From Muribaculaceae bacterium (GTDB lineage: Bacteria; Bacteroidota; Bacteroidia; Bacteroidales; Muribaculaceae), in the NCBI GenBank assembly GCA_017626045.1, contig JAGAJP010000059.1, positions 1 to 64,000 of the forward strand: DNA of 64,000 bases, written 5' to 3'. The notes under the pieces were generated by a model. It was not told the DNA's origin and did no database searches. It was given only the letters and a program-made list of their open reading frames with translations. A program made the position numbers and the translations under genes. This document shows positions 3,629 to 34,268 of the stretch, piece after piece. The first letter of the stretch is position 1, and each line of letters opens with the position of its first letter.

Positions 3629-3669
3629 ATCTATTAGTAACTTCTTCAGAAATTTGTTTGGTAAATAAA

Positions 3670-4027: not shown

Positions 4028-4059
4028 TTTTGCAGTTTCAGAAATATGTGTTAAATTTG
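4028..4059 (+). promoter_or_regulatory. Promoter of the polysaccharide cluster
   Basis: TTTTG (4028-4032), then 19 bp, then TAAATTTG (4052-4059): a full match to the Bacteroidetes consensus. Transcription would start near 4066, leaving a leader of about 115 nt before the first gene. I found no inverted repeats of the kind that flank invertible capsule promoters. Confidence 0.7.
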
Positions 4060-4095: not shown

Positions 4096-4135
4096 ACTAT
4101 CCTTTTCAAGGAGATAATAGTATATGTGTTTTTAA
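4096..4135 (+). promoter_or_regulatory. Leader with strong Shine-Dalgarno, mini-ORF and weak hairpin
   Basis: Inside the leader, AAGGAGAT (4108-4115) lies 10 bases before ATG TGT TTT TAA (4124-4135), a three-codon frame encoding M-C-F. The flanks ACTAT-CCTT and AAGG...ATAGT can form an imperfect stem that would hide the ribosome site. In UpxY-type operons the leader RNA is where the antiterminator acts; whether this is such a site is a guess. Confidence 0.25.
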
Positions 4136-4181: not shown

Positions 4182-5603
4182 ATGTCTGACGTAAACGATT
4201 TTGTGAATTTTGTCGAAAGTCTTGACACTTCCGACATGTCTGACATGCTTGCTACAAGAATCATCCCTTCGTTTCTTCAGGCGGTTCACCGGCATGAAAT
4301 TTCTTCATTTACCGACTCCGCCCTCAAATATTGGTATGTCGACATGGCTTCTGCGGGCATAAAAGGCTCGACTTCAAAACGATATATAGGATCGCTGCAT
4401 AATCTGTACAAAGAGTGGAGGGAGAAGCATCCCGAAGCCGACGACCTCTCCGCCGCTTTCAAGGAAATATCGTCCGCAATAGCGCCTGACGACAACAGCA
4501 ATAATCTAAAGCGAATAGCCGACAACTACAACAAGGTTGCCTCACTCGCAAAGTTTACATCTCGTCTGAAAGGGGAGAGGTTCATTGCCAACAATGTATT
4601 TCAGTTCCTCTTCTACAATCCCCGGATTTCGATGTCGGAACTCGTGAATCTGAAGTTCACCGACCCGGTGGCAGACTCTCATCATCTCAAAGACATAGTG
4701 GCGTCGATGAGAAAGATGCCGCAGGCAAAATATGTCTTCCCGTTCCAGCAGGGCAAGCGTCGCGAGGCCGCCATAATCCGAGACCTTGTGAAGGCAATCC
4801 ATACAGAGGCAAGAAGCTGCGGCATGGATTTCGGCACAAATTTCTCACGCGATTCCATTAAGTCACTGTGGATCCATTCAGCCCTTCAGCTTGACATTCC
4901 GGTTCCTGAAATACTCGCGATGGTCAATCAGCTCCCCGATGACTTCCGCTTTCTCTCCGTGTTCCCCCCCGCGCAGCTGACGGAAGATGAAGAGGCAGAC
5001 CTTATATGCCGCGTCGCCGACCATGTCAACAGCAAGTCGCTCCGTTGGTTTGTCATGAGACTGCGCTCAGGTGTAGAGCCCGACGACATAAAGGAAAAAC
5101 TCGTCGAGCAGAAAAACCCGCACCTCTCCACGATAAAATTCTTCTACCCCCTTCGGGAAACGAAGAAAATCGAAAAGAAAAAGGTAATCACCGTCCAGAC
5201 GCCGTATCTTCCCGGAATCCTCTTTTTCCGCCTCGCCGCCGACAAGGTAGCGAGTCTCATGAGCGGCATCGGCGACCTCGCGTGGTGTTACCGCACCTCT
5301 GCCAATCCCGCCAGTCCCTACTCCGCGATTTCGCAAAAGGAGATGAAAGCGTTTCAGCGCTGCATCGGCTCGTTCACTTCCGACATCGAGATAGAACTCG
5401 TTAGTTCGATGCCCCAGCTAAACATCGGCGACGAAGTAATGATAGAAGACGGCGGAATGCTGACCGGCCAGCAGGCAACCATCCAGAAGATACGCAGCGT
5501 AGACGGCACCATCACCTACTCCCTCCGCCTCTCCGACACAGCCTTCATCCGCTGGAAGGAAATCACCCTCCCCGCCTCCCACCTCACAAAGCTCAGCGAC
5601 TAA
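4182..5603 (+). CDS. Recombinase-like/NusG (UpxY-like) antiterminator fusion
   Basis: A 473-aa protein from ATG 4182; a GTG at 4143 is in frame but less likely. Residues 5-95 look like the SAM-like core-binding domain of tyrosine recombinases. Residues about 115-260 resemble their catalytic domain (FQFLFYNPRISMSELVNLKF aligns with the usual T-G-x-R-x-S-E-L box), but the H-x-x-R and Tyr nucleophile positions are not recognisable, so strand exchange is unlikely. Residues about 288-396 form a NusG N-terminal domain (RWFVMRLRSG...YLPGILFFR), and residues 414-460 a KOW motif (NIGDEVMIEDG.LTGQQATI). First gene of a polysaccharide cluster, it occupies the place of UpxY, which lets RNA polymerase read through the leader of its own capsule operon. 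Its stop abuts the next ATG. That the N-terminal part binds DNA near the operon is inference. Confidence 0.8.
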   Translation: MSDVNDFVNFVESLDTSDMSDMLATRIIPSFLQAVHRHEISSFTDSALKYWYVDMASAGIKGSTSKRYIGSLHNLYKEWREKHPEADDLSAAFKEISSAIAPDDNSNNLKRIADNYNKVASLAKFTSRLKGERFIANNVFQFLFYNPRISMSELVNLKFTDPVADSHHLKDIVASMRKMPQAKYVFPFQQGKRREAAIIRDLVKAIHTEARSCGMDFGTNFSRDSIKSLWIHSALQLDIPVPEILAMVNQLPDDFRFLSVFPPAQLTEDEEADLICRVADHVNSKSLRWFVMRLRSGVEPDDIKEKLVEQKNPHLSTIKFFYPLRETKKIEKKKVITVQTPYLPGILFFRLAADKVASLMSGIGDLAWCYRTSANPASPYSAISQKEMKAFQRCIGSFTSDIEIELVSSMPQLNIGDEVMIEDGGMLTGQQATIQKIRSVDGTITYSLRLSDTAFIRWKEITLPASHLTKLSD

Positions 5604-7037
5604 ATGCCCGAATCCCTGAAACATAAGACTCTCCGTGGCACAATCTGGAGTGGAATAGAGCGCTTTTCCCTTCAGGGCATTTCTTTCCTTGTAATGGTGG
5701 TGATGGCAAGACTGCTGACTCCACACGACTATGGACTGATAGGAATGCTGATGGTGTTCATAGCGGTTTCCCAATCGCTTGTCGACAGCGGTTTCTCTCA
5801 GGCGCTCATCAGGAAACTTGACAGATCGGAAACCGACAACTCTACGGTCTTCTATTTCAATCTCGTCGTTGGAGCAGGGCTATATCTCCTGCTATATTTC
5901 TGCGCTCCACTTATTGCTGACTTTTACGGACAGCCAATTCTGACTCCCATCACAAGGCTCCTGTCTTTGAATATTGTTGTAAATTCTTTGGTAGTTGTTC
6001 AGCGCGCCATTCTCACAATCAACATAGATTTCAAGACCCAGGCAAAAGCATCACTAATAGCCGCCGTCATCTCCGGTGCTGTTGGTATTTCCATGGCATA
6101 CGCCGGATTCGGAGTATGGTCCATCGTATGGTACCAGCTTACAAGTCTATCAATCAACGCGGCATTGCTTTGGCTTTTTTCTAAATGGCGCCCGAAAGCG
6201 ACATACTCCTGGGAATCATTCCGGGAATTGTTCGGGTTCGGGTCCAAACTGGCGTTCTCAGGCATCATCGATACTGTTTACAACAACATTTATCTTATAG
6301 TAATAGGCAAGATATTCAACTCTTCCGATTTAGGATACTACACGAGAGCGCAGCAATTTGCCGAGTTCCCCTCTTCCAATGTTTCCGGCATTATACAAAG
6401 GGTTACATACCCTGTGTTATGCACTATTCAGAATGATGACGAAAGATTACGGGATGTCTACCGCCGATTCCTTAGGGTTTCGGCTTTTGTGGTATTCCCT
6501 TTGATGATAGGACTGGCCGCGGTGGCTCATCCGCTTATTAATGTGATTCTTACGAAGGAATGGAGCTTTACCGCCGTGCTTCTTCAGATCATTTGTCTGT
6601 CGATGATGTGGTATCCCGTTCATGCCATCAACCTTAATCTCCTTCAGGTAAAAGGCAGAAGTGATCTCTTTCTTCGTCTTGAGATAATAAAGAAAATAGT
6701 CGGAGTCTGCATACTGTGTGTCACCATACCAATGGGACTCGTTGCGATGTGCTGGGGATCGGTTGTCAGTTCCCTTATTGCATTGGTTATCAACACCCAC
6801 TACACCGGCATACTGATTCATGTTGGTTTCCTGCGGCAGATGAGGGATCTTATTCCCACTATGCTTTATTCTCTTTCAATGGGTTTGATTGTATATCTTA
6901 CAGTAACTTTGTTGCCTAACGATATTTTAAGGTTGACATGTGGCACCGTGATTGGAATAGCATACTATCTTTTAGTCACAAAACTCACACATTCCTCAGA
7001 TCTTAAGGAACTTCTCTCTCTCATCAAGGCAAGATGA
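5604..7037 (+). CDS. Polysaccharide flippase, Wzx/TuaB (MOP superfamily)
   Basis: A 477-aa polytopic membrane protein. It begins KHKTLRGTIWSGIERFSLQG, with the family signature ARLLTPHDYGLIGMLMVF near residue 40, followed by repeated hydrophobic segments (about 12-14 helices). This is the WzxC/TuaB type of lipid-linked oligosaccharide flippase, which would move the finished repeat unit across the inner membrane. The ATG directly follows the TAA of the antiterminator gene, so the two are co-transcribed. With the EpsG-type protein at 18530 it points to a Wzx/Wzy-style pathway. Confidence 0.9.
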   Translation: MPESLKHKTLRGTIWSGIERFSLQGISFLVMVVMARLLTPHDYGLIGMLMVFIAVSQSLVDSGFSQALIRKLDRSETDNSTVFYFNLVVGAGLYLLLYFCAPLIADFYGQPILTPITRLLSLNIVVNSLVVVQRAILTINIDFKTQAKASLIAAVISGAVGISMAYAGFGVWSIVWYQLTSLSINAALLWLFSKWRPKATYSWESFRELFGFGSKLAFSGIIDTVYNNIYLIVIGKIFNSSDLGYYTRAQQFAEFPSSNVSGIIQRVTYPVLCTIQNDDERLRDVYRRFLRVSAFVVFPLMIGLAAVAHPLINVILTKEWSFTAVLLQIICLSMMWYPVHAINLNLLQVKGRSDLFLRLEIIKKIVGVCILCVTIPMGLVAMCWGSVVSSLIALVINTHYTGILIHVGFLRQMRDLIPTMLYSLSMGLIVYLTVTLLPNDILRLTCGTVIGIAYYLLVTKLTHSSDLKELLSLIKAR

Positions 7038-7095
7038 GGATACCAGTTCCCCGTGAATCTTGAGGTGTTGCCTTAGCGATAATTTATATACGGAA

Positions 7096-8211
7096 ATGAC
7101 AAGCAAAGAACAAATAACAGTAACTTCGCCATTACTTCCCGACCTTGATGAGTTTCATGAAATGCTCACCGAGATTTGGAACAAAAAATGGATAACAAAC
7201 AACGGTTCTTTCCATCAGCAACTTGAAAGGGAACTCGCAAGTTATCTGAAAGTGCCTTTTATAAGTCTTTTCACCAACGGAACGCTTCCGCTTATCACAG
7301 CCCTGCAGGCACTGCGAATAACCGGGGAGGTCATCACGACTCCATATAGTTTTGTGGCGACGACACATTCCTTATGGTGGAATGGAATAAAACCGGTATT
7401 CGTTGACGTTGATCCCTCCAACTGCGGTTTGGATCCTGCGAAAATTGAAGCGGCGATCACCCCCAAGACCACGGCGATAATGCCTGTGCACTGCTATGGC
7501 AAGCCATGCGACACCAAAGCCATTCAGGAGATAGCAGACAAATATGGCCTCAAGGTAATCTACGATGCCGCCCATGCATTTGGAGTAGAAGTAGACGGAG
7601 AGTCTGTTCTCAACGCCGGCGACATGTCTACACTTTCATTTCATGCCACCAAGGTCTATAACACCATCGAGGGTGGAGCCATGGTGATGCATGACGAAAA
7701 GACAAAACAGCGAATAGACTATCTTAAGAATTTCGGGTTTGCCGGAGAAACTACCGTCGTAGCCCCGGGCATCAACTCAAAAATGGATGAGATCCGCTCC
7801 GCTTACGGTATTCTGAATCTCAGGCAGGTTGATTCCGCCATAGCGGCACGTCAAAAGGTGGCCATTCGATATCGGGAGGCTTTAAGGGATGTCCCCGGCA
7901 TTTCATTCTTCGAAGATATGCCCGGTGTAAGGCACAACTACAGTTATTTCCCAATTTTTGTTGACGCAGAGAAATTCGGCATTACAAGAGACGAACTGTA
8001 TTTCGCCATGCGTGAGGCTAATGTATACGGCAGACGTTATTTCTACCCCTTGATAAGCGAATTCTCGACCTATCGCGGACTCCCATCCGCTACGAGAGAG
8101 AACCTGCCAAACGCCTACAAGCTGTCAGACTCAGTCCTGTGCCTGCCGATGCATCACGACCTCTCCGACCAGGATATTGACCGCGTTCTTTATTTCTTTA
8201 AAAAGAACTGA
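7096..8211 (+). CDS. DegT/DnrJ/EryC1-family sugar aminotransferase
   Basis: 371 aa from ATG 7096 (a TTG 36 bases upstream is in frame but unlikely). PLP-dependent fold-type I enzyme that usually aminates a nucleotide-linked 4-keto or 3-keto sugar. Visible hallmarks are FTNGTLPLITALQAL (phosphate cup), YDAAHAFGV (Asp contacting the PLP ring) and SFHATKVYNTIEGGA with the Schiff-base lysine. It resembles VioA/RffA-type dTDP-4-keto-sugar transaminases. No dTDP- or UDP-sugar dehydratase is in the window, so the keto-sugar substrate must come from elsewhere and its identity is open. Spacing to the flippase is 58 bases. Confidence 0.88.
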   Translation: MTSKEQITVTSPLLPDLDEFHEMLTEIWNKKWITNNGSFHQQLERELASYLKVPFISLFTNGTLPLITALQALRITGEVITTPYSFVATTHSLWWNGIKPVFVDVDPSNCGLDPAKIEAAITPKTTAIMPVHCYGKPCDTKAIQEIADKYGLKVIYDAAHAFGVEVDGESVLNAGDMSTLSFHATKVYNTIEGGAMVMHDEKTKQRIDYLKNFGFAGETTVVAPGINSKMDEIRSAYGILNLRQVDSAIAARQKVAIRYREALRDVPGISFFEDMPGVRHNYSYFPIFVDAEKFGITRDELYFAMREANVYGRRYFYPLISEFSTYRGLPSATRENLPNAYKLSDSVLCLPMHHDLSDQDIDRVLYFFKKN

Positions 8212-8214
8212 ACA

Positions 8215-9396
8215 ATGCACACCAGAAATAAATCGAGAATTTCTAAAGTCGCCGATGGAATTGCACCATCTATGATTCGCAAATTGTTCAACATGGCGAA
8301 GTCCATTGACGATGTAGTTGACTTTACACTTGGCGACCCTGACGTCCAGCCTCATGAAAATATAAAGAAAGCGGCTTGTGATGCGATAATGTCAGGGAAA
8401 ACCAGATATTCCCAGAATGCCGGTCTCCTTGAACTGCGCGAAACTATCAGTCGTCGCGTTAAAGAAAAGGATTCTTTGTATTATTCACCGTTGACAGAGA
8501 TTGCTGTTACTGTTGGCGCTATGGAAGGACTTTATTTAACTCTTCTGTCATTGATAGACGATGGAGACGAGGTTATAATTCCTGCTCCTTATTACGTCAA
8601 CTACAAGCAGATGGTAGAGATGTGTGGAGGAATCCCGATAATTGTAAATCCTTCCGACAAAGAGACACTGCTTGTTAATGGCGAGGATATCTCCAGAGCA
8701 ATTACAGAGCGAACAAAGGCTATACTTCTCAATTCGCCGGCAAATCCAAGTGGAAGGATTTTAACCGACGAAACTATAAACACTATCGCTAAACTTGCAA
8801 TTGAACATGACCTGACTGTCATATCAGATGAAGTTTACCGAAAACTTATATATGACTCAAAGCCTTATCTAAGCATCGCTTCTTTACTGGGGATGAAAGA
8901 TTATGTTGTTGTAATCAACAGTCTTTCAAAAGAATTCTGTATGACAGGATACCGGCTTGGCTACATTCTCGGACCTGAAGACATTGTGGCTGCTGTGGTA
9001 AAGTTGCAGGAAAACGTTGCCGCATGTGCACCGCTTCCTTCTCAATACGCTGCGATTGAGGCTCTTGGGTCAAGAATTGATTATTCTGAACAGATGATAG
9101 ACACCTTCACAAAAAGAAGAGATGTCCTGTTCGACGAACTGAAACAGGCAGAAGGTATCAGAATGATAAAACCGGAGGCGACTTTTTATGCGATGATTGA
9201 TATCTCCGGAATGGGTTACGATTCATCAGTCAGTTTTGCATATGACCTGTTGGAAAAAGCAAGGGTAGCGGTCGTGCCCGGAATTTCGTATGGTGATATT
9301 TGTAAGGATTTTATACGCATTGCATTTACTCTTGAAGAATCGAAGATAATTGAGGGAGCAAGACGAATTGCAATGTTTACAAAGACAGCAAAATAA
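8215..9396 (+). CDS. Class I/II pyridoxal-phosphate aminotransferase
   Basis: 393 aa. Aspartate-aminotransferase-like: FTLGDPDVQPHENIKKAA near the N-terminus, RYSQNAGLLELRETIS, ISDEVYRKLIYD (PLP-ring Asp and Tyr) and NSLSKEFCMTGYRLGY containing the PLP lysine. Enzymes of this group transaminate amino acids and keto acids. In this context it may provide an amino-acid building block for the adjacent ATP-grasp ligase, whose ATG overlaps its stop by one base. The substrate cannot be told from sequence. From here to about 14460 the DNA is visibly more AT-rich than the flanking genes, suggesting an imported block. Confidence 0.85.
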   Translation: MHTRNKSRISKVADGIAPSMIRKLFNMAKSIDDVVDFTLGDPDVQPHENIKKAACDAIMSGKTRYSQNAGLLELRETISRRVKEKDSLYYSPLTEIAVTVGAMEGLYLTLLSLIDDGDEVIIPAPYYVNYKQMVEMCGGIPIIVNPSDKETLLVNGEDISRAITERTKAILLNSPANPSGRILTDETINTIAKLAIEHDLTVISDEVYRKLIYDSKPYLSIASLLGMKDYVVVINSLSKEFCMTGYRLGYILGPEDIVAAVVKLQENVAACAPLPSQYAAIEALGSRIDYSEQMIDTFTKRRDVLFDELKQAEGIRMIKPEATFYAMIDISGMGYDSSVSFAYDLLEKARVAVVPGISYGDICKDFIRIAFTLEESKIIEGARRIAMFTKTAK

Positions 9397-10595
9397 TGAA
9401 ACGTATTTTAATGCTCGGTGGCTCGTTGTATCAGACTTTTGCAATAAAAGAGGCTGTAAGTATGGGTTATTACGTGATTACTTGCGATTATCTTCCGGAT
9501 AATCCCGGTCATAAATTCGCTCACGAATACCATAATGTAAGTACGACTGACAAGGAAGCAGTTCTCGAATTGGCGAACAAATTGAATGTTGATGGGGTGG
9601 TGGCATACGCCTCTGATCCCGCAGCTCCAGTAGCAGCCTATGTCAGTGAAAAACTCGGGCTTCCAACATCTCCGTATAAGTCTGTTGAAATCCTTTCAAA
9701 TAAGGATTTATTCAGAAAGTACCTGTCGGAACACGGGTTCAACACTCCCAAAGCTATGGGCTTCTCTTCTTTAGAAGATGCGAAGGCAAGTAAGCATTTG
9801 TTTAAACTTCCTGTCATGATCAAACCGGTGGACTCGTCGGGAAGTAAAGGCATTAACAAACTCGTTTCATGGGATTATCTTGAAGAGTATGTGGCTGACG
9901 CACTCAGTTACTCAAGATCCAAAAGATTCATTATTGAGGAGTTTATCGACAAACAAGGGTGGCAGATTTCCGGAGATGCTTTCAGTGTTGACGGGAAACT
10001 CGTATTTCATTGCTTTGGCAACGAATATTACAATGCAAAAGGTAAGAAGGATTTTGCCCCGATTGGTGAATCATGGCCTTTTATGATGGACTCTAAATAT
10101 ATCGACATTCTCACTGATGACTTGCAGAGACTAATCACTTCCCTTGAAATGAAGAGTACTGCTTATAATGTTGAGGCTATTGTTGATAAGTCCGGTAAAG
10201 TATATATTCTTGAACTTGGGGCGAGAAGTGGCGGAAGCTTGATTCCTCAGATTACAAAATATGCTACCGGTGTTGATATGGTTCCGTATGTAATTAAAGC
10301 GGCCGTTGGCGAAGACTGCTCTGATTTGAAAATGGCGCCTTCCAACGGTTGCTGGGCAAACTATATGGTGCATTCCAAGTCCACAGGTAAATTCAAAGAC
10401 ATCATATTTGCTCCGGGATTCAAGGAGAATCACCTGGTTGAATTTGTCACTGAACTGAAGCCGGGTGATGAAGTTCATGAATTCAGGGATGCGCAAGATG
10501 CTCTGGGAGAAATGATTCTAAAGTTTGAGAATCCGGAGCAAATGTTTGCAATGCTTGAAAATATGGACAATTATATCCGGCTGACCACATACTAA
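9396..10595 (+). CDS. ATP-grasp carboxylate-amine ligase
   Basis: 399 aa. The N-terminal pre-ATP-grasp fold begins KRILMLGGSLYQTFAIKEA. The ATP-grasp core follows, with LPVMIKPVDSSGSKGI (glycine-rich ATP loop), FIIEEFIDKQG, and near residue 290 VYILELGARSGG with Mg-binding Glu. These enzymes use ATP to form an acyl phosphate and join it to an amine, giving amide or peptide bonds. In a polysaccharide cluster the natural reading is attachment of an amino acid to an amino sugar or another amine-bearing residue, or synthesis of an unusual dipeptide. It overlaps the aminotransferase stop by one base. Confidence 0.82.
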   Translation: MKRILMLGGSLYQTFAIKEAVSMGYYVITCDYLPDNPGHKFAHEYHNVSTTDKEAVLELANKLNVDGVVAYASDPAAPVAAYVSEKLGLPTSPYKSVEILSNKDLFRKYLSEHGFNTPKAMGFSSLEDAKASKHLFKLPVMIKPVDSSGSKGINKLVSWDYLEEYVADALSYSRSKRFIIEEFIDKQGWQISGDAFSVDGKLVFHCFGNEYYNAKGKKDFAPIGESWPFMMDSKYIDILTDDLQRLITSLEMKSTAYNVEAIVDKSGKVYILELGARSGGSLIPQITKYATGVDMVPYVIKAAVGEDCSDLKMAPSNGCWANYMVHSKSTGKFKDIIFAPGFKENHLVEFVTELKPGDEVHEFRDAQDALGEMILKFENPEQMFAMLENMDNYIRLTTY

Positions 10596-10607
10596 AATCT
10601 TTTATAG

Positions 10608-11075
10608 ATGCACGAATCGTTGGAATACATCTTTTATCACCTTGATTATAAGACAGTAAAGGACTTGCTTGACAGAATGTCACCTCAGTTTAGTCCTTCG
10701 CTATCTTGCAATATGGATTTGGATTCTTATGCAGAGAAATTGGCGACAAACGCCACCTTTCTATTGTGTAAATCAAGTGATTTAGTTGTAGGGGCTATCG
10801 TGTTTTATCCCAATTCTTCGACTTCAATTATATATATTCCGCTTGTATGGGTTGATAATGACTGGAGAGGTCAGAGAATTGCAAAAAATATGTTTATGTC
10901 TCTGCTGCAGTATGGTGATTCCAACAAATTCAAAAACATAGACTTGGAAGTCCTAAAGTCCAATAAAGAGGCAAGATGCTTATATTCTTCACTGGGCTTT
11001 TCAATTTTGGAAGACAGACAGTCAAAATTTCTACTTCGATTGCCTTTATCTAATAAAGATGAAAAAAATGAGTGA
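10608..11075 (+). CDS. GNAT-family N-acetyltransferase
   Basis: 155 aa. The acetyl-CoA binding signature is WVDNDWRGQRIAKNMFMSLL (R-x-x-R-I-A after beta-4), followed by NIDLEVLKSNKEARCLYSSL and GF near the end, as in small GNAT enzymes. It probably N-acylates an amine, perhaps the amino group made by one of the neighbouring aminotransferases. Its 3' end overlaps the start of the LicD gene, so the two are translationally coupled. The substrate is not deducible. Confidence 0.8.
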   Translation: MHESLEYIFYHLDYKTVKDLLDRMSPQFSPSLSCNMDLDSYAEKLATNATFLLCKSSDLVVGAIVFYPNSSTSIIYIPLVWVDNDWRGQRIAKNMFMSLLQYGDSNKFKNIDLEVLKSNKEARCLYSSLGFSILEDRQSKFLLRLPLSNKDEKNE

Positions 11076-11952
11076 GCTTGAAAGAATTAAAAACAGTGGA
11101 TTGCTATCGCCATCTTTTTTCCTTCCGGAAGAAAAATGTGATTTTTATGTGTCCGAACAACGAAAAATGTTATGGGCGATTCTTTTGGATTTATTAATAG
11201 AATTCCAAAGAGTCTGTAAAAAGCATAATCTGACCTATTATGCAATGTTTGGAACACTCTTAGGTGCAATCAGGCATAAGGGAATTATTCCATGGGATGA
11301 TGATCTTGATGTGGCTATGCCAAGAACTGATTATGAGCGTCTGAAAAGTCTTAAAAATGAGTTCAAGTTCCCATATCACATGACATGGCCGGATGTTGAG
11401 TCTGAAAACGGTTATTCTTTTATTAAATTGCGTAATTCGGAAACAACGGCTATGTCGTATGCCTTTACGCATCTTGATATCGACCAGGGAATATTCCTTG
11501 ATATTTTCCCTTATGATGAGGTCAACGAAGCCACATATTATTCTGATCAGTCCATTATCAAAGAGTTGCTGATTAGGAATTCCAACAATATGAAAATGCT
11601 CAAGAATGAAGGTGTTGACAAGGATATGATTCGAGCCGATATATTGGAAACTTTTCATAAAATAGAAAACCTTGCTCAAAAAGACAATGGTAAAGGATAT
11701 GATAAAATTGCCTTCAGGACAATTTCTTTTGATCCTCCCGAACGTCTGATTTGGTCAAAAGCCAATCATTCCAACAGTTTCCCAATGAAATTTGAGGAGT
11801 TTGAGATAAACATTCCCGAAGGATGGAAAAAAATCTTGGAAGTAAGTTACGGTGACTGGAAGAAGATGCCACCGGCCGAAGAACGAGGCATAGTGCATGC
11901 AAATGCTATTTTTGACCCCAATCTTCCATATTCACATTACCAAAATCAGTGA
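11059..11952 (+). CDS. LicD-family phosphotransferase
   Basis: 297 aa from ATG 11059 (a second ATG at 11068 is equally possible). The LicD signature is clear: MFGTLLGAIRHKGIIPWDDD followed by LDVAMPRTDYERL, with metal-binding Asp residues. LicD proteins move a phospho-alcohol such as phosphocholine from a CDP-linked donor onto a sugar. The cytidylyltransferase domain encoded at 13120 could make such a donor, and no choline kinase or choline uptake gene is present, so the group moved may not be choline. It overlaps the GNAT gene by 17 (or 8) bases. Confidence 0.9.
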   Translation: MKKMSELERIKNSGLLSPSFFLPEEKCDFYVSEQRKMLWAILLDLLIEFQRVCKKHNLTYYAMFGTLLGAIRHKGIIPWDDDLDVAMPRTDYERLKSLKNEFKFPYHMTWPDVESENGYSFIKLRNSETTAMSYAFTHLDIDQGIFLDIFPYDEVNEATYYSDQSIIKELLIRNSNNMKMLKNEGVDKDMIRADILETFHKIENLAQKDNGKGYDKIAFRTISFDPPERLIWSKANHSNSFPMKFEEFEINIPEGWKKILEVSYGDWKKMPPAEERGIVHANAIFDPNLPYSHYQNQ

Positions 11953-11995
11953 TTGGTAAGTCGTTTTTTATTGTCAATGGTGGAGTAAATCATTT

Positions 11996-13093
11996 ATGAA
12001 AAAAATTAAAATCGATAATATGCTGAATTTCACTGTCGGACCTGTCATGTCAAGCGAGGAAATTCTTGCAATTGGAGCGGAACAGGTTCCGTATTTCAGA
12101 ACAGAAGAATTCTCAGATATGATGTTTGAGAATGAAAGGTTGATGAAAGATTTCGTTAACGCCCCAAAGAGCGCTAAAACAGTTTTCATTACCGGCTCCG
12201 GTACCGCGTCAATGGAAGCTGTCGTTATGAACGTATTCAATGATTCCGACAAACTGTTGGTAGTTGATGGTGGCTCCTTTGGACATAGATTCGTAAAACT
12301 ATGTGAAATTCATAACATCCCCCACACTGCTATAAAATTGGATAGTGGACATGTTGTTACCAGGGAAATTCTTGAAAAATATAGTGGATTTGGATATACC
12401 GGATTATTAGTTAATATTCATGAAACATCCACAGGAGTGCATTATGACCCTGAATTGTTGGGAGAATTCTGCAAAAAGGAAGGACTTCTCTACGTCGTAG
12501 ATGCTATCAGCTCATTTCTTGCCGATTCTATCGATATGACGGCAAGTGGAATAGATGTAATCATAACCGGATCTCAAAAGGTTTTGGCTTGCGCTCCCGG
12601 TATTTCTATCATAATTTTAGGAGAAAATGCAATAGAAAGAATATATCGGAATAATACAAAGACGATGTATCTTGATCTTAAAGATGCATTGAATAACGCT
12701 GAAAGAGGGCAGACCCCCTTTACTCCTGCGGTAGGTATACTACGTCAAATTAACGCAAGATTACGTCAGATAAAATCTAATGGCGGTGTCCAGTCAGAAA
12801 TTGATAGGGTAAAGGCTCAGGCAGAGGATTTCAGAAATAAGATTATTGGACTTCCATTCGAAATCGTTTCTGAATCTATGTCAAACGCTCTCACTCCTTT
12901 ACATCCTACAACCGCTTCGGCGTACGATATATTCCTAAAACTTAAGGATGAGTATGGGATTTGGATATGTCCGAATGGAGGTGATATGAAGGATACTGTA
13001 TTCCGGGTCGGTCATTTCGGAGCTATCACTTCAAAAGACAATGACACCCTAATTTCGGCTTTTAACGATCTCCGGAAAAATGGATTTATTTGA
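11996..13093 (+). CDS. Class V aminotransferase (AEP/serine-pyruvate transaminase-like)
   Basis: 365 aa. Class V PLP fold: [13 protein letters not shown] at the start, [33 protein letters not shown] (PLP-ring Asp) and [17 protein letters not shown] (Schiff-base Lys). The nearest well-known relatives are 2-aminoethylphosphonate:pyruvate and alanine/serine:glyoxylate transaminases. Lying between LicD and a cytidylyltransferase-oxidoreductase fusion, it plausibly makes the amine of a phospho-amino-alcohol. No PEP mutase or phosphonopyruvate decarboxylase is in the window, so a phosphonate route is unproven. Confidence 0.82.
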
Positions 13094-13119
13094 CAAAAAT
13101 CATATTCAATCAAGGGTAA

Positions 13120-14460
13120 ATGACAAAAGTCATAACATATGGCACTTATGACCTTCTCCACAAAGGGCATATCAGGCTATTGGAAAGGGCTAAGCAATTG
13201 GGCGATTTCCTGATTGTCGGGGTAACTGCTGATTGTTTTGACCGTTCTCGTGGTAAAATCAATGTCCAACAGTCTCTCATGGAAAGAATTGAGGCTATAA
13301 GGGCAACCGGACTTGCTGATCAGATTATCGTTGAGGAATACGAAGGTCAAAAGATTGATGACATCAAAAAATATGATGTGGATATATTCACTGTCGGATC
13401 TGACTGGGTAGGAAAATTTGATTATCTTAATGAATTCTGCAAAGTTGTATATTTGGACAGAACTCAAGGCATTTCAAGCAGTGATATTCGTTCTGAATTT
13501 AGAAACATAAGAATTGGTGTTATAGGAGAATCTCCAATTATCAACAAATTCATAAAAGAATGCGGCTATGTAAATGGCGTGTCCATTGCCGGAATTTGTT
13601 CGGAAGACACATCTAAACTTGATTTAAATGCTCTTCCCTTACCATTGATTACAAACAGAATCGATAAATTGCTTCCTTGCAGTGATGCCATATATGTGAT
13701 ATCAAGACCGGAGAAACATTTTGGTATTATCAAAGAAGCTTTTGATTTTGGTAAACATGTGTTATGTGAATCCCCGGTAACACTTAAAATTTCAGATTAT
13801 TATACTCTAAAGGCAATTGCTGACGAAAAGGGACTCGTCTTAATGGACGGTGTCAAAACAGCCTATTCAACAGCATTTGAAAGATTGGTTCTATTAGTTA
13901 AGGGTGGAATTATCGGCGATGTGATTTCTATTGACAGCACCTGTACTTCTATGGAAAAATTTGCTTTATATGGAGAACAGGAGTTTAAATATTTATGGAA
14001 TTCAATAACGGAGTGGGGACCTACCGCTTTATTGCCAGTGTTTGATATTCTTGGTACCAATTATACAGATTGCCATATAATCACTAAATTATTGGCACCC
14101 TCTTCAGACTTCGACTTATTCACTAAAATCCTATTGATTTATCCGCACGCTGTTGCGTCTGTCAAGATTGGGCAGGGTGTTAAGTCTGAAGGAGACTTGA
14201 TTATTTCAGGCACTAATGGTTATGTATATGTTCCTGCGCCATGGTGGAAAACTGATTATTTCGAGGTGAGATATGAGAATAGTACTCAAAACAGACGGTT
14301 TTTCTATCAATTAGACGGAGAAGGAATTCGATATGAGATTCTTTCATTTGTAGAGCAGATCGAGTCTAAAATTAAAAATGCCCGTATTTCAAATAATATT
14401 TCGTCCCAGACCATCAAACTCATAGAGGATTTTTACTCAAAAAAATTCATTGAAATTTAA
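13120..14460 (+). CDS. Cytidylyltransferase-Gfo/Idh/MocA oxidoreductase fusion
   Basis: 446 aa. Residues 1-130 are a TagD-type nucleotidyltransferase: TYGTYDLLHKGHIRLLERAK (HxGH) and RTQGISSSDIRS (the RTxGISTT-type motif), typical of CTP:glycerol-3-phosphate or ethanolamine-phosphate cytidylyltransferases. Residues about 135-446 are a Gfo/Idh/MocA-like dehydrogenase (IRIGVIGES Rossmann start). The family's EKP motif reads ESP here (HVLCESPVTL), so the usual catalytic lysine is missing. The protein would make a CDP-alcohol and perhaps bind or reduce its precursor, feeding LicD. It begins 26 bases after the class V aminotransferase. Confidence 0.8.
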   Translation: MTKVITYGTYDLLHKGHIRLLERAKQLGDFLIVGVTADCFDRSRGKINVQQSLMERIEAIRATGLADQIIVEEYEGQKIDDIKKYDVDIFTVGSDWVGKFDYLNEFCKVVYLDRTQGISSSDIRSEFRNIRIGVIGESPIINKFIKECGYVNGVSIAGICSEDTSKLDLNALPLPLITNRIDKLLPCSDAIYVISRPEKHFGIIKEAFDFGKHVLCESPVTLKISDYYTLKAIADEKGLVLMDGVKTAYSTAFERLVLLVKGGIIGDVISIDSTCTSMEKFALYGEQEFKYLWNSITEWGPTALLPVFDILGTNYTDCHIITKLLAPSSDFDLFTKILLIYPHAVASVKIGQGVKSEGDLIISGTNGYVYVPAPWWKTDYFEVRYENSTQNRRFFYQLDGEGIRYEILSFVEQIESKIKNARISNNISSQTIKLIEDFYSKKFIEI

Positions 14461-14483
14461 GCCTAAAAGACATAATATCAGAT

Positions 14484-15482
14484 ATGAGAGCTATCCCTGA
14501 CAACATAAGGAAAAGGATTGAGGAGATCAAGAGGCAATGCGATTCGATAAGGCCTCTTGTTGCTATATATTCAACCGCTTACAATCATGGACCATATATC
14601 AAAGATGCTCTTGAAGGTTTTGTGAAACAGAAAACAAAATTACCGTATATAGCGATTGTACATGATGATGCATCTTCGGATCACACTGCCGATATTATAA
14701 GAAGTTATGCCGAAAAATATCCCGATATCATAATTCCGATTCTTGAGATTGAAAACCTATACTCAAAACCGGGAGGAGGGGTCACGAAAGTAATGATATC
14801 AGCTATAAAAGCAACCGGTGCCAAATATGTGGCGATGTGCGAGGGCGATGATTACTGGACTGATCCAGACAAACTTCAGATGCAGGTGGACTTTTTGGAA
14901 TCCCACCCGGATTATTCAATGTGCTGCCATAGGGTAGATGTTCTCAATGAAAACACCGGCAACATTGATACCGGATGCACGGAAATCTCCGACAGGGACT
15001 ATGACCACTGCGACATTCAGGGTAAGTTAAGTATTCCAACATGTTCTACTGTATTGAGAACTGAATGTCTTCTGAACATGCCGCAAGACAATGATTTCAT
15101 CGTTGGCGACAATGTATTATGGGCTACATGCAGGTCCATGGGGAAAGCGAGGGGGTTCGAAAAATCCATGGGGGTATATCGTAGGGTTGAATCCGGTTGG
15201 ACTGCGCAGACTACACATCTCGATAAAGAAAGATACTATAAGCTTCAGTTATCGTGGATTAAGCACTATGAGGCTATGAAAAGATATTTCCCGACTGTAG
15301 ACAGGAATATTTTTGATAATTTGATATGTGAATATCAGGCTTGCGTGACTTACGTTGATTTGATAAAGTACCATTCAAATTTATTCCCTCATTTTAAACA
15401 GTTCTTTGGTGATTATCGCGGTAAGTATCTGTCAGCATTGATAAAGCTTGTCGCAAAGTCAATCAGTCAAAAATTAAGATAG
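14484..15482 (+). CDS. Family 2 glycosyltransferase
   Basis: 332 aa. GT-A fold: VAIYSTAYNHGPYIKDALEG at about residues 27-46, HDDASSDHTADII with the first Asp cluster, and AMCEGDDYWTDPDKLQMQVD holding the DxD-like metal site. Enzymes with the GDDYW motif add a sugar from a nucleotide donor to the lipid-linked acceptor on the cytoplasmic side. The acceptor and donor are unknown. It ends 4 bases before the first acyltransferase gene. Confidence 0.9.
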   Translation: MRAIPDNIRKRIEEIKRQCDSIRPLVAIYSTAYNHGPYIKDALEGFVKQKTKLPYIAIVHDDASSDHTADIIRSYAEKYPDIIIPILEIENLYSKPGGGVTKVMISAIKATGAKYVAMCEGDDYWTDPDKLQMQVDFLESHPDYSMCCHRVDVLNENTGNIDTGCTEISDRDYDHCDIQGKLSIPTCSTVLRTECLLNMPQDNDFIVGDNVLWATCRSMGKARGFEKSMGVYRRVESGWTAQTTHLDKERYYKLQLSWIKHYEAMKRYFPTVDRNIFDNLICEYQACVTYVDLIKYHSNLFPHFKQFFGDYRGKYLSALIKLVAKSISQKLR

Positions 15483-15486
15483 TCTG

Positions 15487-16476
15487 ATGATTAACAAGAA
15501 TATAGATATACTTAAATATATAATGAGCATCATGATCGTGATTCTCCATCTGGAGTGGTTTCTCGATTCTCCTGTGCTTAGATGTGCTGTTCCTGTATTC
15601 TTCATCATCTCTTCTTTTCTCTTTTTCAATAAAATAAAAAACTCCTCTGCCGCCGATTCTAAAGTCGCGCTCAGAAAACTCACTGCGAGGGCCATAAAAC
15701 TATACCTGTTCTGGTTCATTGTATTACTGCCAATTACTCTCGCTCTCCATATCCATATAGGAGACCTGAGACAATACTTGATATATTTCCCTCTTAACCT
15801 CATTCTTGACGGCGTCTTTCCCGCTTCCTGGTATTTCGCGGCATACATAATTGGAATACATATAGTATATCATCTCAGAAATTTTCCGGTTCTGTCACTT
15901 GTTTTTGGCATTGTCGGTTATCTTATATGCTGTGGGGTGACCAATTACGGATCATTTGCCTTTGCCATTGTAGACATAAATCATCTTCCATATATATTGT
16001 CTCACTATGTAAGAAACTCGTATATGACTTTCTTGGCAGGCCTGTATTTTATATGGATTGGCAAATACATAGCCGACAATAACATAAGGAACATGAAAGT
16101 AGGATTGACAGGAATCGTCGTCGGTTCTGTCATGCTATATTTTGAAAATTCCCTCGTGTGTCGACTCGATTGCCGCGTTCAGGACGACTGCTATTTGAGC
16201 CTTATTCTCTTGGCGCCGGCGATATACATATTTGTGCTGTCGCTCCCTCAATTCATTGGATTTGACACCGGATTCTTTAGGAAAGCAAGCACAATATATT
16301 ATTGTTCTCATATTCCGATATTCACCGTTCTTCTGGCAATGGAAAAAAATCTCCAATTTGAGATGGATAAACCGCTGACATTTATATGTGTAATTACCTT
16401 ATGCACTCTGTTGGCAGCGACTCTTATCAATCTTTCCGAAAGGAGAAGGTTTAAGATTCTGAGGTATTCATATTGA
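15487..16476 (+). CDS. Acyltransferase 3-family membrane protein (first of two)
   Basis: 329 aa, about 10 predicted membrane segments. It starts NKNIDILKYIMSIMIVILHL with the catalytic-type His at the end of the first helix, followed by CAVPVFFIISSFLFF, both typical of Acyltransfer_3 (OafA/WecH-like) proteins. These O-acylate sugars, usually with acetyl groups, at the inner membrane. A second family member follows at 16481, so the polymer may carry two acyl groups. It lies tightly between a glycosyltransferase and that paralogue. Confidence 0.85.
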   Translation: MINKNIDILKYIMSIMIVILHLEWFLDSPVLRCAVPVFFIISSFLFFNKIKNSSAADSKVALRKLTARAIKLYLFWFIVLLPITLALHIHIGDLRQYLIYFPLNLILDGVFPASWYFAAYIIGIHIVYHLRNFPVLSLVFGIVGYLICCGVTNYGSFAFAIVDINHLPYILSHYVRNSYMTFLAGLYFIWIGKYIADNNIRNMKVGLTGIVVGSVMLYFENSLVCRLDCRVQDDCYLSLILLAPAIYIFVLSLPQFIGFDTGFFRKASTIYYCSHIPIFTVLLAMEKNLQFEMDKPLTFICVITLCTLLAATLINLSERRRFKILRYSY

Positions 16477-16480
16477 GCTT

Positions 16481-17560
16481 ATGGACTATAGGAAACTGAC
16501 ATCTGAAACTATTGATTTTCTACGGTTCCCGCTTATTATCGGAGTCATATTCATTCATAGCTACAGTTTATGCGGTCAGTTTTACGAATCAAACGACCTT
16601 TCCGGGCGAGGTCCGTTCTACTATATCGCGACTCTGTTTTCCGATGTCCTGGCAACTGTGGCTGTCCCCATATTCTTTTTCATATCCGGGTATCTGTTTT
16701 TTCGCAACATTGATGTCTTCGACCATTCAGCATATCTTGATAAGATCAGGAAAAGATTCAAATCTCTCGTCATACCGTATCTTTTCTGGAATCTCGCAGT
16801 TGTCGGCTTTTATCTGCTTATCGGTAGGATTCCTGCGCTTTCCGCGTTTGTAAACGGTTATTCTCCGGGCGTTCAGGACATATTAGTTGGAAGAATTGGC
16901 GCTGACGGCACCAACTATTTCCCTGCAGCATATCAGTTCTGGTTTATTAGAGACCTGATAGTTTGCGTGTTCATATCGCCTGTTCTGTATCTTATAATAA
17001 GAAAGACACGGCACATCGGATTGATACTGCTCGGAGTAGGATGGTTTCTCGGCTATTCAATTCCATATATAGGAACAAAAGGATTCAGTCTTGTGTCCAT
17101 GTTCTTTTTCTCTTGTGGAGGCTGGTTCTGCTTCCAAAAGAAAGAACTGATTGCAGTTTTTGAGGATTTGCGTTTCTTCGCATGGATATATCCATTGATC
17201 GCACTCGCAGATCTTGTCACAAAGGGAGAGACCTACAATCTATATATACATAATTTGGGTATTCTCTCCGGTGTTATGTTTTGTTTTCTTCTCTCCGCTG
17301 TTTTGATAAGAAGATATAACTTCCGGATGCTCCCGTTTCTGTCTGCAGCCTCGTTCTTTGTGTTTGCGATTCATGAGCCCTGGCTTTTGACAATACTGAA
17401 GAAATTTATATTCGCCTCTATTGCCCCGAGATCGGAAGCAATGATGATTGCCATCTATTTCCTTACAGTCTTCTTTGTGGCACTACTGTCAGTGGCAATC
17501 TACCGGCTGATGAAAAGATGTTTCCCGTCAATCACCCGTCTTATTTCCGGAGGAAGATAA
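16481..17560 (+). CDS. Acyltransferase 3-family membrane protein (second of two)
   Basis: 359 aa, polytopic. SETIDFLRFPLIIGVIFIHS near the N-terminus ends in the family's His, and VAVPIFFFISGYLFF follows at about residues 62-76. An Acyltransfer_3 enzyme likely to O-acylate a sugar of the repeat unit. It begins 4 bases after the preceding paralogue, from which it has clearly diverged, so different positions or sugars are probably modified. Confidence 0.9.
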   Translation: MDYRKLTSETIDFLRFPLIIGVIFIHSYSLCGQFYESNDLSGRGPFYYIATLFSDVLATVAVPIFFFISGYLFFRNIDVFDHSAYLDKIRKRFKSLVIPYLFWNLAVVGFYLLIGRIPALSAFVNGYSPGVQDILVGRIGADGTNYFPAAYQFWFIRDLIVCVFISPVLYLIIRKTRHIGLILLGVGWFLGYSIPYIGTKGFSLVSMFFFSCGGWFCFQKKELIAVFEDLRFFAWIYPLIALADLVTKGETYNLYIHNLGILSGVMFCFLLSAVLIRRYNFRMLPFLSAASFFVFAIHEPWLLTILKKFIFASIAPRSEAMMIAIYFLTVFFVALLSVAIYRLMKRCFPSITRLISGGR

Positions 17561-17564
17561 AATC

Positions 17565-18521
17565 ATGGTAAGCGTTCTTGTTCCAATATATAATGTCGCT
17601 CCTTACATAGAAAGATGCGCCCGGTCGCTTTTTGAGCAGACATTCTCCGACATTGAGTTCGTGTTTGTTGACGATTGCTCGCCCGATGACAGTATCTCCA
17701 TTCTACAAGAAGTAGTCAAAGATTATCCGGCAGTAGGGGAGCGCGTCCGAATAATTCGCAATAACGAAAACAAAGGCCTCGCAGCAGTGCGAAACATTGC
17801 TGTTGAAAAGGCGAAAGGGGAGTTCATTCTCCATGTAGACAGCGACGACTGGTTGGAAAAAGACACTGTGGAATTATTGTATTCTACAGCGATAGCAGAG
17901 GATGCCGATGTCGTGGCATGCGATTTCAACGAAATCAGAAAAAAGGGATCTTCAATTATAGTTAATAACTGCATCCCTGATCCATTAATGTATGCAAAAT
18001 CACTTTTAAGAAGAAAATCGCTTACTCACATCATCGGAAAACTCATTAGAAAAAGCATCCTTACCGACAATGGACTCCGGGCTGTGGAAGGTCTCAATCA
18101 GGGTGAAGACTATCTCATGACTCCTAAGATAGCATACTTCTCTCGCCGCATTGCAAAAGTCGACAAGCCTCTCTACAACTACAATAGACTGAATGTCAAT
18201 TCATACACCGCAAATGTCAGCGACCATGCCATTGACTGCATAATAAAGGTGCAGAATCTGCTTGTGGATTTTTTCAGAAACATTCCGGATGCCGAAAATT
18301 TCAAAGATACCCTCGACGAGTCCTGCATATACAATAAAATCACATGCTTTTATTGCGCGCCATTCTCATCGTATAAAAAAATACGGTCTCTCTATATGGA
18401 CATCGACTGGCACCGAATGCGTCTTAAATCCGGACAGCGGCTCATACTTAGACTCTCCGATGCCGGAATGACTCGATCGGTATATGCTTTGATTCGTTTC
18501 GCAAATTTCATAATGAAATAA
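17565..18521 (+). CDS. Family 2 glycosyltransferase
   Basis: 318 aa. Starts SVLVPIYNVAPYIERCARSL; FVDDCSPDDSISIL and LHVDSDDWLEKDTVELLYS give the GT-A nucleotide- and metal-binding sites. It resembles the glycosyltransferase encoded at 25127 (same PIY.V..YIE.CARSLF.QT start), so the two are probably paralogues with different acceptors. It follows the second acyltransferase by 4 bases. Sugar specificity cannot be read from the sequence. Confidence 0.92.
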   Translation: MVSVLVPIYNVAPYIERCARSLFEQTFSDIEFVFVDDCSPDDSISILQEVVKDYPAVGERVRIIRNNENKGLAAVRNIAVEKAKGEFILHVDSDDWLEKDTVELLYSTAIAEDADVVACDFNEIRKKGSSIIVNNCIPDPLMYAKSLLRRKSLTHIIGKLIRKSILTDNGLRAVEGLNQGEDYLMTPKIAYFSRRIAKVDKPLYNYNRLNVNSYTANVSDHAIDCIIKVQNLLVDFFRNIPDAENFKDTLDESCIYNKITCFYCAPFSSYKKIRSLYMDIDWHRMRLKSGQRLILRLSDAGMTRSVYALIRFANFIMK

Positions 18522-18529
18522 CTCCACGG

Positions 18530-19627
18530 ATGTTTTTCTACCTGTGCATATTCTTCCTGTCTACCCTGCTTGTCTATGTCGGCACAAGAAGTCGAGGCGC
18601 ACAGAGAAATATAATTATCCTGTTGGCTCTTCTCATCCCCGCCCTTGTCGCTACTTATAGAGGGTTTTCCGTCGGTGCCGACACCCAGAACTACTACGAC
18701 CGTTATCATCAGTTTATAAGCGCCGATGGATTAAAGGCGATGATTGCAGTCCTCGACACCGAGTTCTTCTTTATTGCGGGGTGTTTTGTCGCGAAAATTA
18801 TCGGTGGCTACAGGCTCGTATTCTTCAGTTATTCTTTTCTTACGCTCCTGTTCTCATTCTTAGCTCTTTATAAATACCGGCGTTATGTCTGCGTATGGTT
18901 GGGCTATGCACTCTTCCTCTTTTTCTTCTATCAGGCATCCCTTAATATAATGAGGCAGATCCTTGCCGTGGCATATATTCTTTACTGCACTACTTTCCTT
19001 CTCGACGGACATAAGAAAAAGTTCTTTGTGCTTGCCGCCTTATCGGTGCTTTTCCATCTCACGGCTATAATAGCCGCCGGAGCGATATATCTCATTTACC
19101 TCATTTCCTCCCTTCCAGACAAGAAGCGCAGGAAAGCGTTTAGACTATATTTTCTCTCCATGTTTCTGGGGTTCTTCCTCGTGGACATAGTTATAAGATA
19201 TCTTGCCTCTGTAAATTTCGGAAACAGTTACGCCTATACGTCAGACGAAGGCAATTCAATGATAAGCGCCACCGACTTGATGTATAGCCTGATCTTCATA
19301 TATGTATCTTACACTTCCATGAAAAGGCACACTGTCAGTGTCATTTCACCGGAGTTCTTTTATCTATCTTCAGTGACCTGCCTCATGTTTTTTATGACAG
19401 GTTACTACAACCAATGGCTTTCCCGAATGGCTTACTACATGATGGCTTTCGCCTGCCTCTATTTTGCGATGATTGTGAAATCCCCGAAGATTCGGAAAGA
19501 GAGGAAGATATATAAATTGGCGTTTCTGTCATTAGGAATGGCGTATTGGTTTTACCTTTTTGTCTATTCGGGAGCCACTATCACCATCCCTTACAGCACA
19601 ATGGGTGGCTTAAGTTTCAATTTTTAA
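18530..19627 (+). CDS. EpsG-family polysaccharide polymerase (Wzy-like)
   Basis: 365 aa with about 10 hydrophobic segments. The EpsG signature region is ATYRGFSVGADTQNYYDRYH near residue 45, and IMRQILAVAYILYCTTFLLD lies in the middle. EpsG-type proteins serve as Wzy-like polymerases that join lipid-linked repeat units on the periplasmic face. Together with the flippase at 5604 this supports a Wzx/Wzy route. Start at ATG 18530, 8 bases after the previous stop. Confidence 0.82.
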   Translation: MFFYLCIFFLSTLLVYVGTRSRGAQRNIIILLALLIPALVATYRGFSVGADTQNYYDRYHQFISADGLKAMIAVLDTEFFFIAGCFVAKIIGGYRLVFFSYSFLTLLFSFLALYKYRRYVCVWLGYALFLFFFYQASLNIMRQILAVAYILYCTTFLLDGHKKKFFVLAALSVLFHLTAIIAAGAIYLIYLISSLPDKKRRKAFRLYFLSMFLGFFLVDIVIRYLASVNFGNSYAYTSDEGNSMISATDLMYSLIFIYVSYTSMKRHTVSVISPEFFYLSSVTCLMFFMTGYYNQWLSRMAYYMMAFACLYFAMIVKSPKIRKERKIYKLAFLSLGMAYWFYLFVYSGATITIPYSTMGGLSFNF

Positions 19628-19635
19628 GTACGTAG

Positions 19636-20694
19636 ATGATATATCTCGACAACATCATATTCTCTCTCCAGAAAGCCGGCGGAATATCGGCTGTCTGGGC
19701 AAACCTTATCGAGAATCTTATCAGTCGCACTCAGGACCTGAGAATGATTGAATATGAGGACGCTTATGGCAATTTCTTCAGACAGAATCTTAACCTGCAG
19801 CCGGATTTAATAATCCGAAAACCTGCCACCGGCGGCATATTACGTGAATTCATGTCTCCACGTGTGGTCTGCGATTCTCCCTTCATATTCCATTCATCAT
19901 ATTTCAGGACTTGTCCGAATCCTAATGCAATCAATGTCAACACCGTGCATGATTTCATTTATGAGCAGGGCAAGATGACTCTCAAGCAGAAGATTCGGAC
20001 CGGACTCGACTATCGGGCTATCCGAAAGAGCGATGCCATCGTTTGCGTCAGCGAGAATACAAAACTCGATCTCCTGAAATTTCTTCCGGATATTGACGAG
20101 TCAAAAATTCGAGTGATACACAACGGCGTTTCCGAAGACTTCGTCAGACTTCCGGAAATCCCTTATCCCGAATATGGGAATCATGTGCTCTTTTTAGGAG
20201 GACGGCAGTCTTACAAGAATTTCTCTTTTGTAGTCAAGTCACTCAAAGATACTGATTTCAGCCTTCTGATATGTGGCTCGCCGCTGTCTAAAGCAGAAAC
20301 CGAAATGCTTGAATCTAATTTGAGAGGCAGATACCGACACATCCTTTTTCCTGTGGGATCCGAACTCAACAGAATATATAACTCAGTCTTTGCTCTTGCT
20401 TATCCTTCATCCTACGAAGGATTCGGTATTCCGGTCCTTGAGGCCCAGAGAGCAGGCTGCCCGGTGATTGCGATGAACATTTCATCAATCCCCGAAATTA
20501 TAGGAGAGGACGCTCTTCTGATAAGCAGCCCTGATAAGGATGAATTCTTGGCAAGACTAAGCGAAATCAAAAATCCTCAAAGACGCCATTCTGTGGTCGA
20601 GACGGGGCTTGACAATGCCAAACGTTTCTCATGGAAGAGAATGGCTGATGAGTATTATAGCCTTTACATAAATCTACTGAGACCCCAATCATGA
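19636..20694 (+). CDS. Family 4 glycosyltransferase (mannosyltransferase-like)
   Basis: 352 aa, GT-B fold. The N-terminal domain has SLQKAGGISAVWANLIENL; the C-terminal domain shows HVLFLGGRQSYKNF and the GT4 donor-site motif SSYEGFGIPVLEAQRAGCP with the E-x7-E pair. This version is close to GDP-mannose-using transferases, though donor choice is uncertain. Its stop overlaps the next gene by four bases (ATGA), indicating coupled translation. Confidence 0.9.
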   Translation: MIYLDNIIFSLQKAGGISAVWANLIENLISRTQDLRMIEYEDAYGNFFRQNLNLQPDLIIRKPATGGILREFMSPRVVCDSPFIFHSSYFRTCPNPNAINVNTVHDFIYEQGKMTLKQKIRTGLDYRAIRKSDAIVCVSENTKLDLLKFLPDIDESKIRVIHNGVSEDFVRLPEIPYPEYGNHVLFLGGRQSYKNFSFVVKSLKDTDFSLLICGSPLSKAETEMLESNLRGRYRHILFPVGSELNRIYNSVFALAYPSSYEGFGIPVLEAQRAGCPVIAMNISSIPEIIGEDALLISSPDKDEFLARLSEIKNPQRRHSVVETGLDNAKRFSWKRMADEYYSLYINLLRPQS

Positions 20695-21482: not shown

Positions 21483-21492
21483 TCTTACTTCC

Positions 21493-22767: not shown

Positions 22768-22770
22768 AAA

Positions 22771-23919: not shown

Positions 23920-23922
23920 TTT

Positions 23923-25116: not shown

Positions 25117-25126
25117 CACCATACTT

Positions 25127-26095: not shown

Positions 26096-26099
26096 TTAT

Positions 26100-34264: not shown

Positions 34265-34268
34265 GATG

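Follow-up and report, generated by a model that had tools for sequence, protein, structure and literature searches.

Surface-polysaccharide expression in Bacteroidales is known to be controlled by two separate layers, promoter inversion and antitermination by UpxY. The UpxY proteins of B. fragilis and B. thetaiotaomicron prevent premature termination in the leader of their own operon (PMC7819879, PMC7315117). Invertons 5' of UpxY genes and beside invertase genes are known in Bacteroidota from a study whose passages on them do not mention a fused protein (PMC11892184). Another specialized NusG paralog, LoaP, requires an RNA hairpin, aided by a pause, and has been described as unique among known NusG-like proteins in binding to an RNA element (PMC12691694). 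Inactivated tyrosine recombinases have been found at work in other proteins: TnsF of Tn6022 is reused for target choice (PMC10293859), and Crypton-derived DUF3504 domains occur mostly in transcriptional regulators (PMC3212892). Here we describe a protein family in which the two layers of polysaccharide control are physically joined, with a dead relative of an inversion enzyme lying within a putative antiterminator.

A degenerate recombinase joined to a NusG/UpxY-like protein

The window (the whole stretch of 64,000 nucleotides analyzed from a Muribaculaceae bacterium) contains a 473-aa open reading frame that runs without interruption from an ATG at 4182 to a stop at 5603, with an alternative GTG start at 4143 (Table 1). 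The preliminary description of this DNA had claimed a single-frame fusion of recombinase-like and NusG/KOW parts at the head of a capsule-type operon. Both statements hold: the frame shows both homologies, and the ATG of a flippase gene at 5604 follows the fusion stop codon with no gap, opening an operon that extends to about 27083. On the other side of the gene, at 3619-4026, lies an ORF of 135 aa with a HERIH (HExxH-like) motif and without a Pfam match, and in locus L069 a relative of it (50% identical) lies within a few kb of the fusion gene.

Table 1. Features of the fusion gene and its surroundings in the window.
Feature	Position	Strand	Basis
Fusion gene, degenerate tyrosine recombinase + NusG/UpxY-like putative antiterminator, 473 aa	4182..5603	+	ORF, profiles
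Core-binding (SAM-like) region, residues ~1-103	4182..4490	+	Family PF13102/PF02899, pLDDT, conservation
Degenerate catalytic region, residues ~104-284	4491..5033	+	Alignment, profile-profile comparison
NusG N-terminal (RNAP-binding) domain, residues ~288-401	5043..5384	+	PF02357, NF033644, Foldseek NusG/RfaH
KOW domain, residues ~413-455	5418..5546	+	Family profile vs NusG/RfaH/Spt5 KOW domains; family KOW matches
Bacteroidales-type promoter TTTTG-N19-TAAATTTG	4028..4059	+	Sequence, scan
Degenerate leader element TATCCTT-TTC-AAGGAGATA then ATAGTATATGTG	4098..4128	+	Leader comparison, model score
Polysaccharide biosynthesis operon headed by fusion gene	5604..27083	+	Flippase, DegT aminotransferase, sugar genes, glycosyltransferase, GSCFA

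Residues 1-284 are homologous to the tyrosine recombinases that flank invertons. When the family profile was compared by hhalign with nine tyrosine recombinases from these genomes, family columns 13-274, which make up nearly the whole N-terminal half, were aligned with a probability of 99.1% (E 1.6e-18). The window protein alone gave a marginal match to XerD (E 0.067). Across the family, the phage-integrase SAM-like (N-terminal) domains PF13102 and PF02899 were matched by 10 of 47 members (best 3.4e-11) and 11 of 47 members, respectively; the family profile matched Cre (2e-4) and XerD (0.03) in the PDB, and active recombinases beside invertons matched the fusion N-terminal half by BLASTP down to 3e-12. 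The earlier reading of the first part as recombinase-like is thus confirmed by profile, although Mpi, which had been set beside XerD, is a serine recombinase. Structure prediction bore out one half of the protein, as the C-terminal part matches NusG and RfaH. For the N-terminal half, AlphaFold models from a 7-sequence alignment reached a pLDDT of 53-54, too poor to confirm the fold, and Foldseek and VIA-align, queried with an N-terminal model of that quality, listed no recombinase. Across approximately residues 11-100 of the window protein, in the core-binding region, pLDDT was 70-92. W51, G59, T64, and Y68 of this region are conserved in the family, as is its T..RY helix.

The catalytic site has been lost, as the preliminary description had claimed for HxxR and Tyr. 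In the window protein, R1, the beta-strand K, HxxR, H/W, and Tyr are all replaced, and across the family the catalytic Tyr is absent from 48 of 48 aligned sequences, R1, R2, and the histidines are not conserved, and the beta-strand K segment is deleted. The RHSW motif retains its tryptophan, W230, in 47 of 48 sequences, and conservation is highest at hydrophobic or aromatic residues (W51, Y68, F186, W230). The isoelectric point of the recombinase half (family median 7.7, 6.3 in the window protein) is well below the 9.4-9.9 of active recombinases. Given the profile homology and the loss of catalytic residues, the N-terminal half, judged by its sequence, descends from a recombinase but is no longer active as one. 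Pairwise identities indicate that it evolves faster than the NusG half, with a median of 20% versus 30% and the lower value in 1095 of 1128 pairs.

Residues 288-473 form a NusG/UpxY-like domain followed by KOW, as had been proposed. The match to the UpxY model NF033644 (E 1e-12, 48.4 bits) lies below the curated cut-off of 100 bits, and the fusion proteins in 35 genomes all fall under this cut-off. PF02357 (NusG) is matched at its gathering score (2e-4), the best Foldseek matches of the window model are NusG and RfaH, and the family profile matches the KOW domains of NusG, RfaH, and Spt5, with KOW matches in family members as well. A third UpxY-like match in the genome of the window (C53) adjoins EF-Tu and was rejected as a housekeeping NusG. 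Elsewhere, the UpxY proteins of L104:4292-5311 and L134 (~340-390 aa, with a long C-terminal extension) represent another unusual architecture, and at L132 (G055:C27) a pair of UpxY genes diverges in a locus that also contains an inverton of the ATCTCTT-N3-AAGAGAT class.

Distribution and genomic context of the family

The same two-domain protein was sought elsewhere and found across Muribaculaceae. Protein searches matched 69 of 297 genomes of this family, a few of these matches being standalone UpxY, and we collected 47 full-length fusion proteins, encoded in uninterrupted frames of 450-545 aa at 47 independent loci, most of which head polysaccharide operons. The genome of the window has a second copy, 26% identical to the first. 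No further fusion was found in 393 genomes sampled across Bacteroidales, where two matches outside the family were standalone recombinases (L116 being complete with catalytic residues), and no relatives were found in the viral contigs, phages, or plasmids searched. In the tree, the NusG halves of the fusions group together, apart from 13 standalone UpxY of the same genomes; the grouping corresponds to one change, with support of 93/60 and recovery in 90% of bootstrap trees. Since the fusion halves stand apart in this way, the tree fits a single fusion event.

In the window and at most family loci, the fusion gene is the first gene of a surface-polysaccharide operon, and the families represented among 80 downstream proteins belong mostly to polysaccharide biosynthesis. 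No UpxZ was recognized by Pfam among the downstream genes scanned. The exception is an orphan clade (L005-L009 and L040), in which the fusion gene, whose product shares ~50% identity with that of the window, lacks a polysaccharide operon and, in L007, L009, and L040, abuts a rhamnogalacturonan-I locus. The same genes form a rhamnogalacturonan-I type utilization locus in the window (27185-41117, minus strand; GH88, GH106, GH28/GH88), where it stands past the far end of the polysaccharide operon. Orphan-clade leaders contain neither an inverton nor the hairpin element described below. Because the clade is nested in the tree beside L042 and the window, both with operons, the simplest account is that the clade retained the protein but lost the operon together with the element. 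Such a joint loss ties the element to the operon and not to translation of the fusion gene itself. The clade shows that the fusion protein is useful without an adjacent operon, and its conservation there, under purifying selection, points to another function or to action in trans.

Leader element and invertible promoters

The leaders of the family have in common a hairpin whose stem is ~9 bp long and whose loop spans 6-27 nt, immediately before a GGGAAGAGAAGAATTG-type stretch, for which motif search gave the consensus GGG(A/T)(A/C)G..AAGA.TG. This element typically lies 40-80 nt 5' of the start codon, and a promoter scan placed promoters upstream of it. A model of the element, R1, was trained on 36 leaders, of which five were positioned manually, and then applied to 35 whole genomes. 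Every one of the 25 matches with E<0.01 was directly upstream of a fusion gene, as were 31 of 40 matches up to E 0.1, and six of these 31 preceded fusion genes that had not been used in training (G223:C26, G238:C86, G117:C1, G209:C33, G261:C31, and G105:C38). R1 gave no match at the ~30 standalone UpxY genes that these 35 genomes contain and none with E<0.01 in 20 genomes without a fusion, and a regular-expression search found no element at the standalone UpxY loci examined. The leader element is specific to the fusion family; Rfam contained no relevant match for it.

RNAalifold retained just 4 pairs from a MAFFT alignment in which the arms were misaligned, so pairing was tested by swapping arms between loci, with the swapped arms re-optimized under the same procedure as the original ones. 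Arms from the same locus formed 235 pairs, compared with 215.9 after swapping (sd 3.3, max 225), and compensatory pair types (GC, TA, AT, CG) occur at most helix positions. The element ends in YG in 22 of 30 cases, 18 of which have a pause-like G-10 Y-1 G+1, the elemental-pause consensus. The window version is below R1 detection (6.2 bits, E 0.4 in 351 bases), and resembles the elements of L043 and L056 by eye; that of the relative L042 is intermediate. The window leader as a whole folds no better than shuffles, and a promoter and terminator scan gave results at chance level. An R1-like match at L094:6515-6588, which precedes a low-complexity ORF, was taken as chance or a relic.

Leaders of many family members also contain the palindrome ATCTCTT-N3-AAGAGAT. 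At 19 of 51 family loci it forms the boundaries of an invertible promoter, with copies 174-269 bases apart that have reverse-complementary centers and a promoter motif between them, and both promoter orientations occur among these 19 loci. No inverton is present at the window locus, where a repeat scan found no repeats around the promoter; a palindrome at 4098-4116 was considered as a half-site and rejected, as it fits the hairpin element better and has no partner repeat. Genome-wide, the repeats also precede genes for standalone UpxY, SusC, fimbrillin-like, and restriction-like proteins. Beside these invertons (L102, L103, L106, L113, and L076) lie tyrosine recombinases whose catalytic residues are intact, with a tandem recombinase-inverton-fusion order at L076 and L113. 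Sequence relationships indicate that the N-terminal half of the fusion is derived from this recombinase type, which flanks promoter invertons in these genomes. As a candidate address tag, however, the leader hairpin is better documented than the inverton site.

Several invertons of this class have other arrangements. In L064, two divergent fusion genes (54-1463 and 1967-3442) have a common promoter between ATCTCTT-N3-AAGAGAT repeats that now faces one of them, and inversion would switch expression to the other. Elsewhere in the genome of the window, invertons are found at L094:6634-6845 (C33), where the promoter now points away from a minus-strand gene set, at L095:6719-6921 (C54), and at L096:155 (C65). 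In L098, L101, and L102, they lie directly 5' of a conserved gene pair (~285 and 1064 aa) that resembles a defense or restriction-type system, possibly a case of phase-variable defense.

Proposed action and comparison with known systems

The explanation that we consider probable as a whole is that the fusions are a Muribaculaceae-specific branch of UpxY-type NusG paralogs with a dead tyrosine-recombinase domain, acting as antiterminators that are loaded at the leader element and to which the dead half adds specificity or partner binding. RNA polymerase transcribing the leader would meet the hairpin and then the pause-like stretch GGG..G..AAGA.TG, and the fusion protein would be recruited at this element. 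By analogy with UpxY, LoaP, and RfaH, the NusG half would bind RNA polymerase there and suppress premature termination, and transcription would then proceed through the long polysaccharide operon, in which the gene for the fusion protein comes first. The recombinase half, no longer cutting DNA, would most likely contribute an extra specificity or tethering contact, for which leader DNA, promoter DNA, and a related active recombinase are candidates. We count against this explanation that the window element was undetected by R1, that the UpxY cut-off was not reached, and that the orphan clade keeps the protein without operon or element. Most fusion genes stand at the head of polysaccharide operons, after the family hairpin and in many cases after an invertible promoter, and this arrangement suggests that an enzyme of phase variation was repurposed to regulate the genes that it formerly switched.

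The preliminary description had taken the recombinase half for a DNA-binding module that ties the antiterminator to its locus. DNA binding is favored by descent, by the T..RY helix, by the TnsF precedent (PMC10293859), and by a tendency of the half to a higher net charge at loci with an inverton, but the half is not strongly basic, which weakens the case for nucleic-acid binding, and the simple version of the claim is opposed by this low pI, by the lack of an inverton in the window, and by the orphan clade. A more specific version, which we hold to be unlikely, is that the half still binds ATCTCTT-N3-AAGAGAT, present in the leader when the promoter is ON, and in doing so places the antiterminator at the promoter of its own gene and acts as a competitor of the active recombinase, stabilizing the ON state. 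The inverton pairs at 19 of 51 loci in both orientations, the descent from recombinases beside such invertons, and the tandem arrangements (L076, L113) all agree with it, and the recombinase half has a median net charge of +2 with the site versus -2 without it (p 0.02 after near-copies were dropped, which is the only way in which this test accounts for phylogeny; 5 of 7 sister contrasts agree). However, the window and ~20 other loci have no inverton, and the repeat serves many unrelated genes as well as standalone UpxY, so its presence in a fusion leader requires no such explanation. The broader idea of a recombinase-derived targeting domain that still reads a recombination site, with that site flipping the promoter via an active paralog, seems more doubtful still; if true, the same site would flip the promoter and load or lock elongation, so that DNA inversion and antitermination would be coupled within a single feedback.

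Alternatively, the recombinase half could be a protein-protein module without any nucleic-acid role, serving in dimerization or in capture of an active recombinase, NusA, Rho, or a UpxZ-like partner. Inactive members of enzyme families often turn into partners, and the loss of basic character (median pI 7.7) and the hydrophobic or aromatic nature of the top conserved positions (W51, Y68, F186, W230) agree with such a role. We rate it as possible though somewhat unlikely, as the T..RY helix of the core-binding domain is conserved and no conserved neighboring partner gene was seen at family loci. The presence of an inverton beside many fusion genes could also be explained by a still active recombinase whose NusG tail is regulatory and which inverts the promoter of its own gene, but this is refuted at the sequence level by the loss of catalytic residues (Tyr absent in 48 of 48, R1 and R2 not conserved, and the beta-strand K segment deleted), active recombinases exist as separate proteins, and we give it almost no credence. 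An assembly error or chance joining of neighboring genes is just as improbable: nothing was found in its favor, and it is refuted by the recurrence of the same uninterrupted frame at 47 loci in many species, by the purifying selection under which both halves evolve (dN/dS of 0.08 and 0.014 in the L005/L007 pair), and by the grouping of the fusion NusG halves apart from standalone UpxY.

The preliminary description knew of no earlier account of such a fusion, and this stands within the open-access literature searched: no fusion of UpxY or NusG with a recombinase or integrase was found. In the text searched of NusG-paralog surveys, the words recombinase, integrase, and fused do not occur and this architecture is likewise missing. 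With a defined leader element to work from, recruitment of a protein of the UpxY type can be tested directly. Given the abundance of Muribaculaceae in the mouse gut, this system is likely to shape a surface phenotype that is common.

Compared with UpxY, the fusion protein shares the NusG N-terminal domain and KOW, the position as first gene of a surface-polysaccharide operon, and often an invertible promoter. It differs in its recombinase-derived N-terminal half of ~280 residues, in scoring under half of the NF033644 cut-off, in forming a separate tree group, and in having a leader element of its own, with no Pfam-recognized UpxZ in the downstream genes scanned. With LoaP and RfaH it would share the recruitment of a specialized NusG paralog at a defined leader element, but neither of these has an extra domain, and unlike in LoaP the hairpin precedes a stretch rich in purines and its loop is variable, not a UNCG tetraloop. 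The inverton-flanking tyrosine recombinases (PF13102 type; L102:2769-4061 and, in the genome of the window, L086:724-1929) are homologous to residues 1-284, but have the catalytic R, K, R, H, and Y, are strongly basic, lack a NusG part, and mostly carry an arm-binding extension that is not found in the fusion. TnsF and DUF3504 proteins likewise reuse a dead tyrosine recombinase inside another protein, with other fusion partners, in other lineages, and with no link to NusG or antitermination; beside TnsF, the family is a bacterial example of the reuse of a recombinase as a domain without catalytic function. Overall, each part is of a known kind; what appears to be new is the way they are combined, the spread of this combination through the family, the leader element, and the link to invertons.
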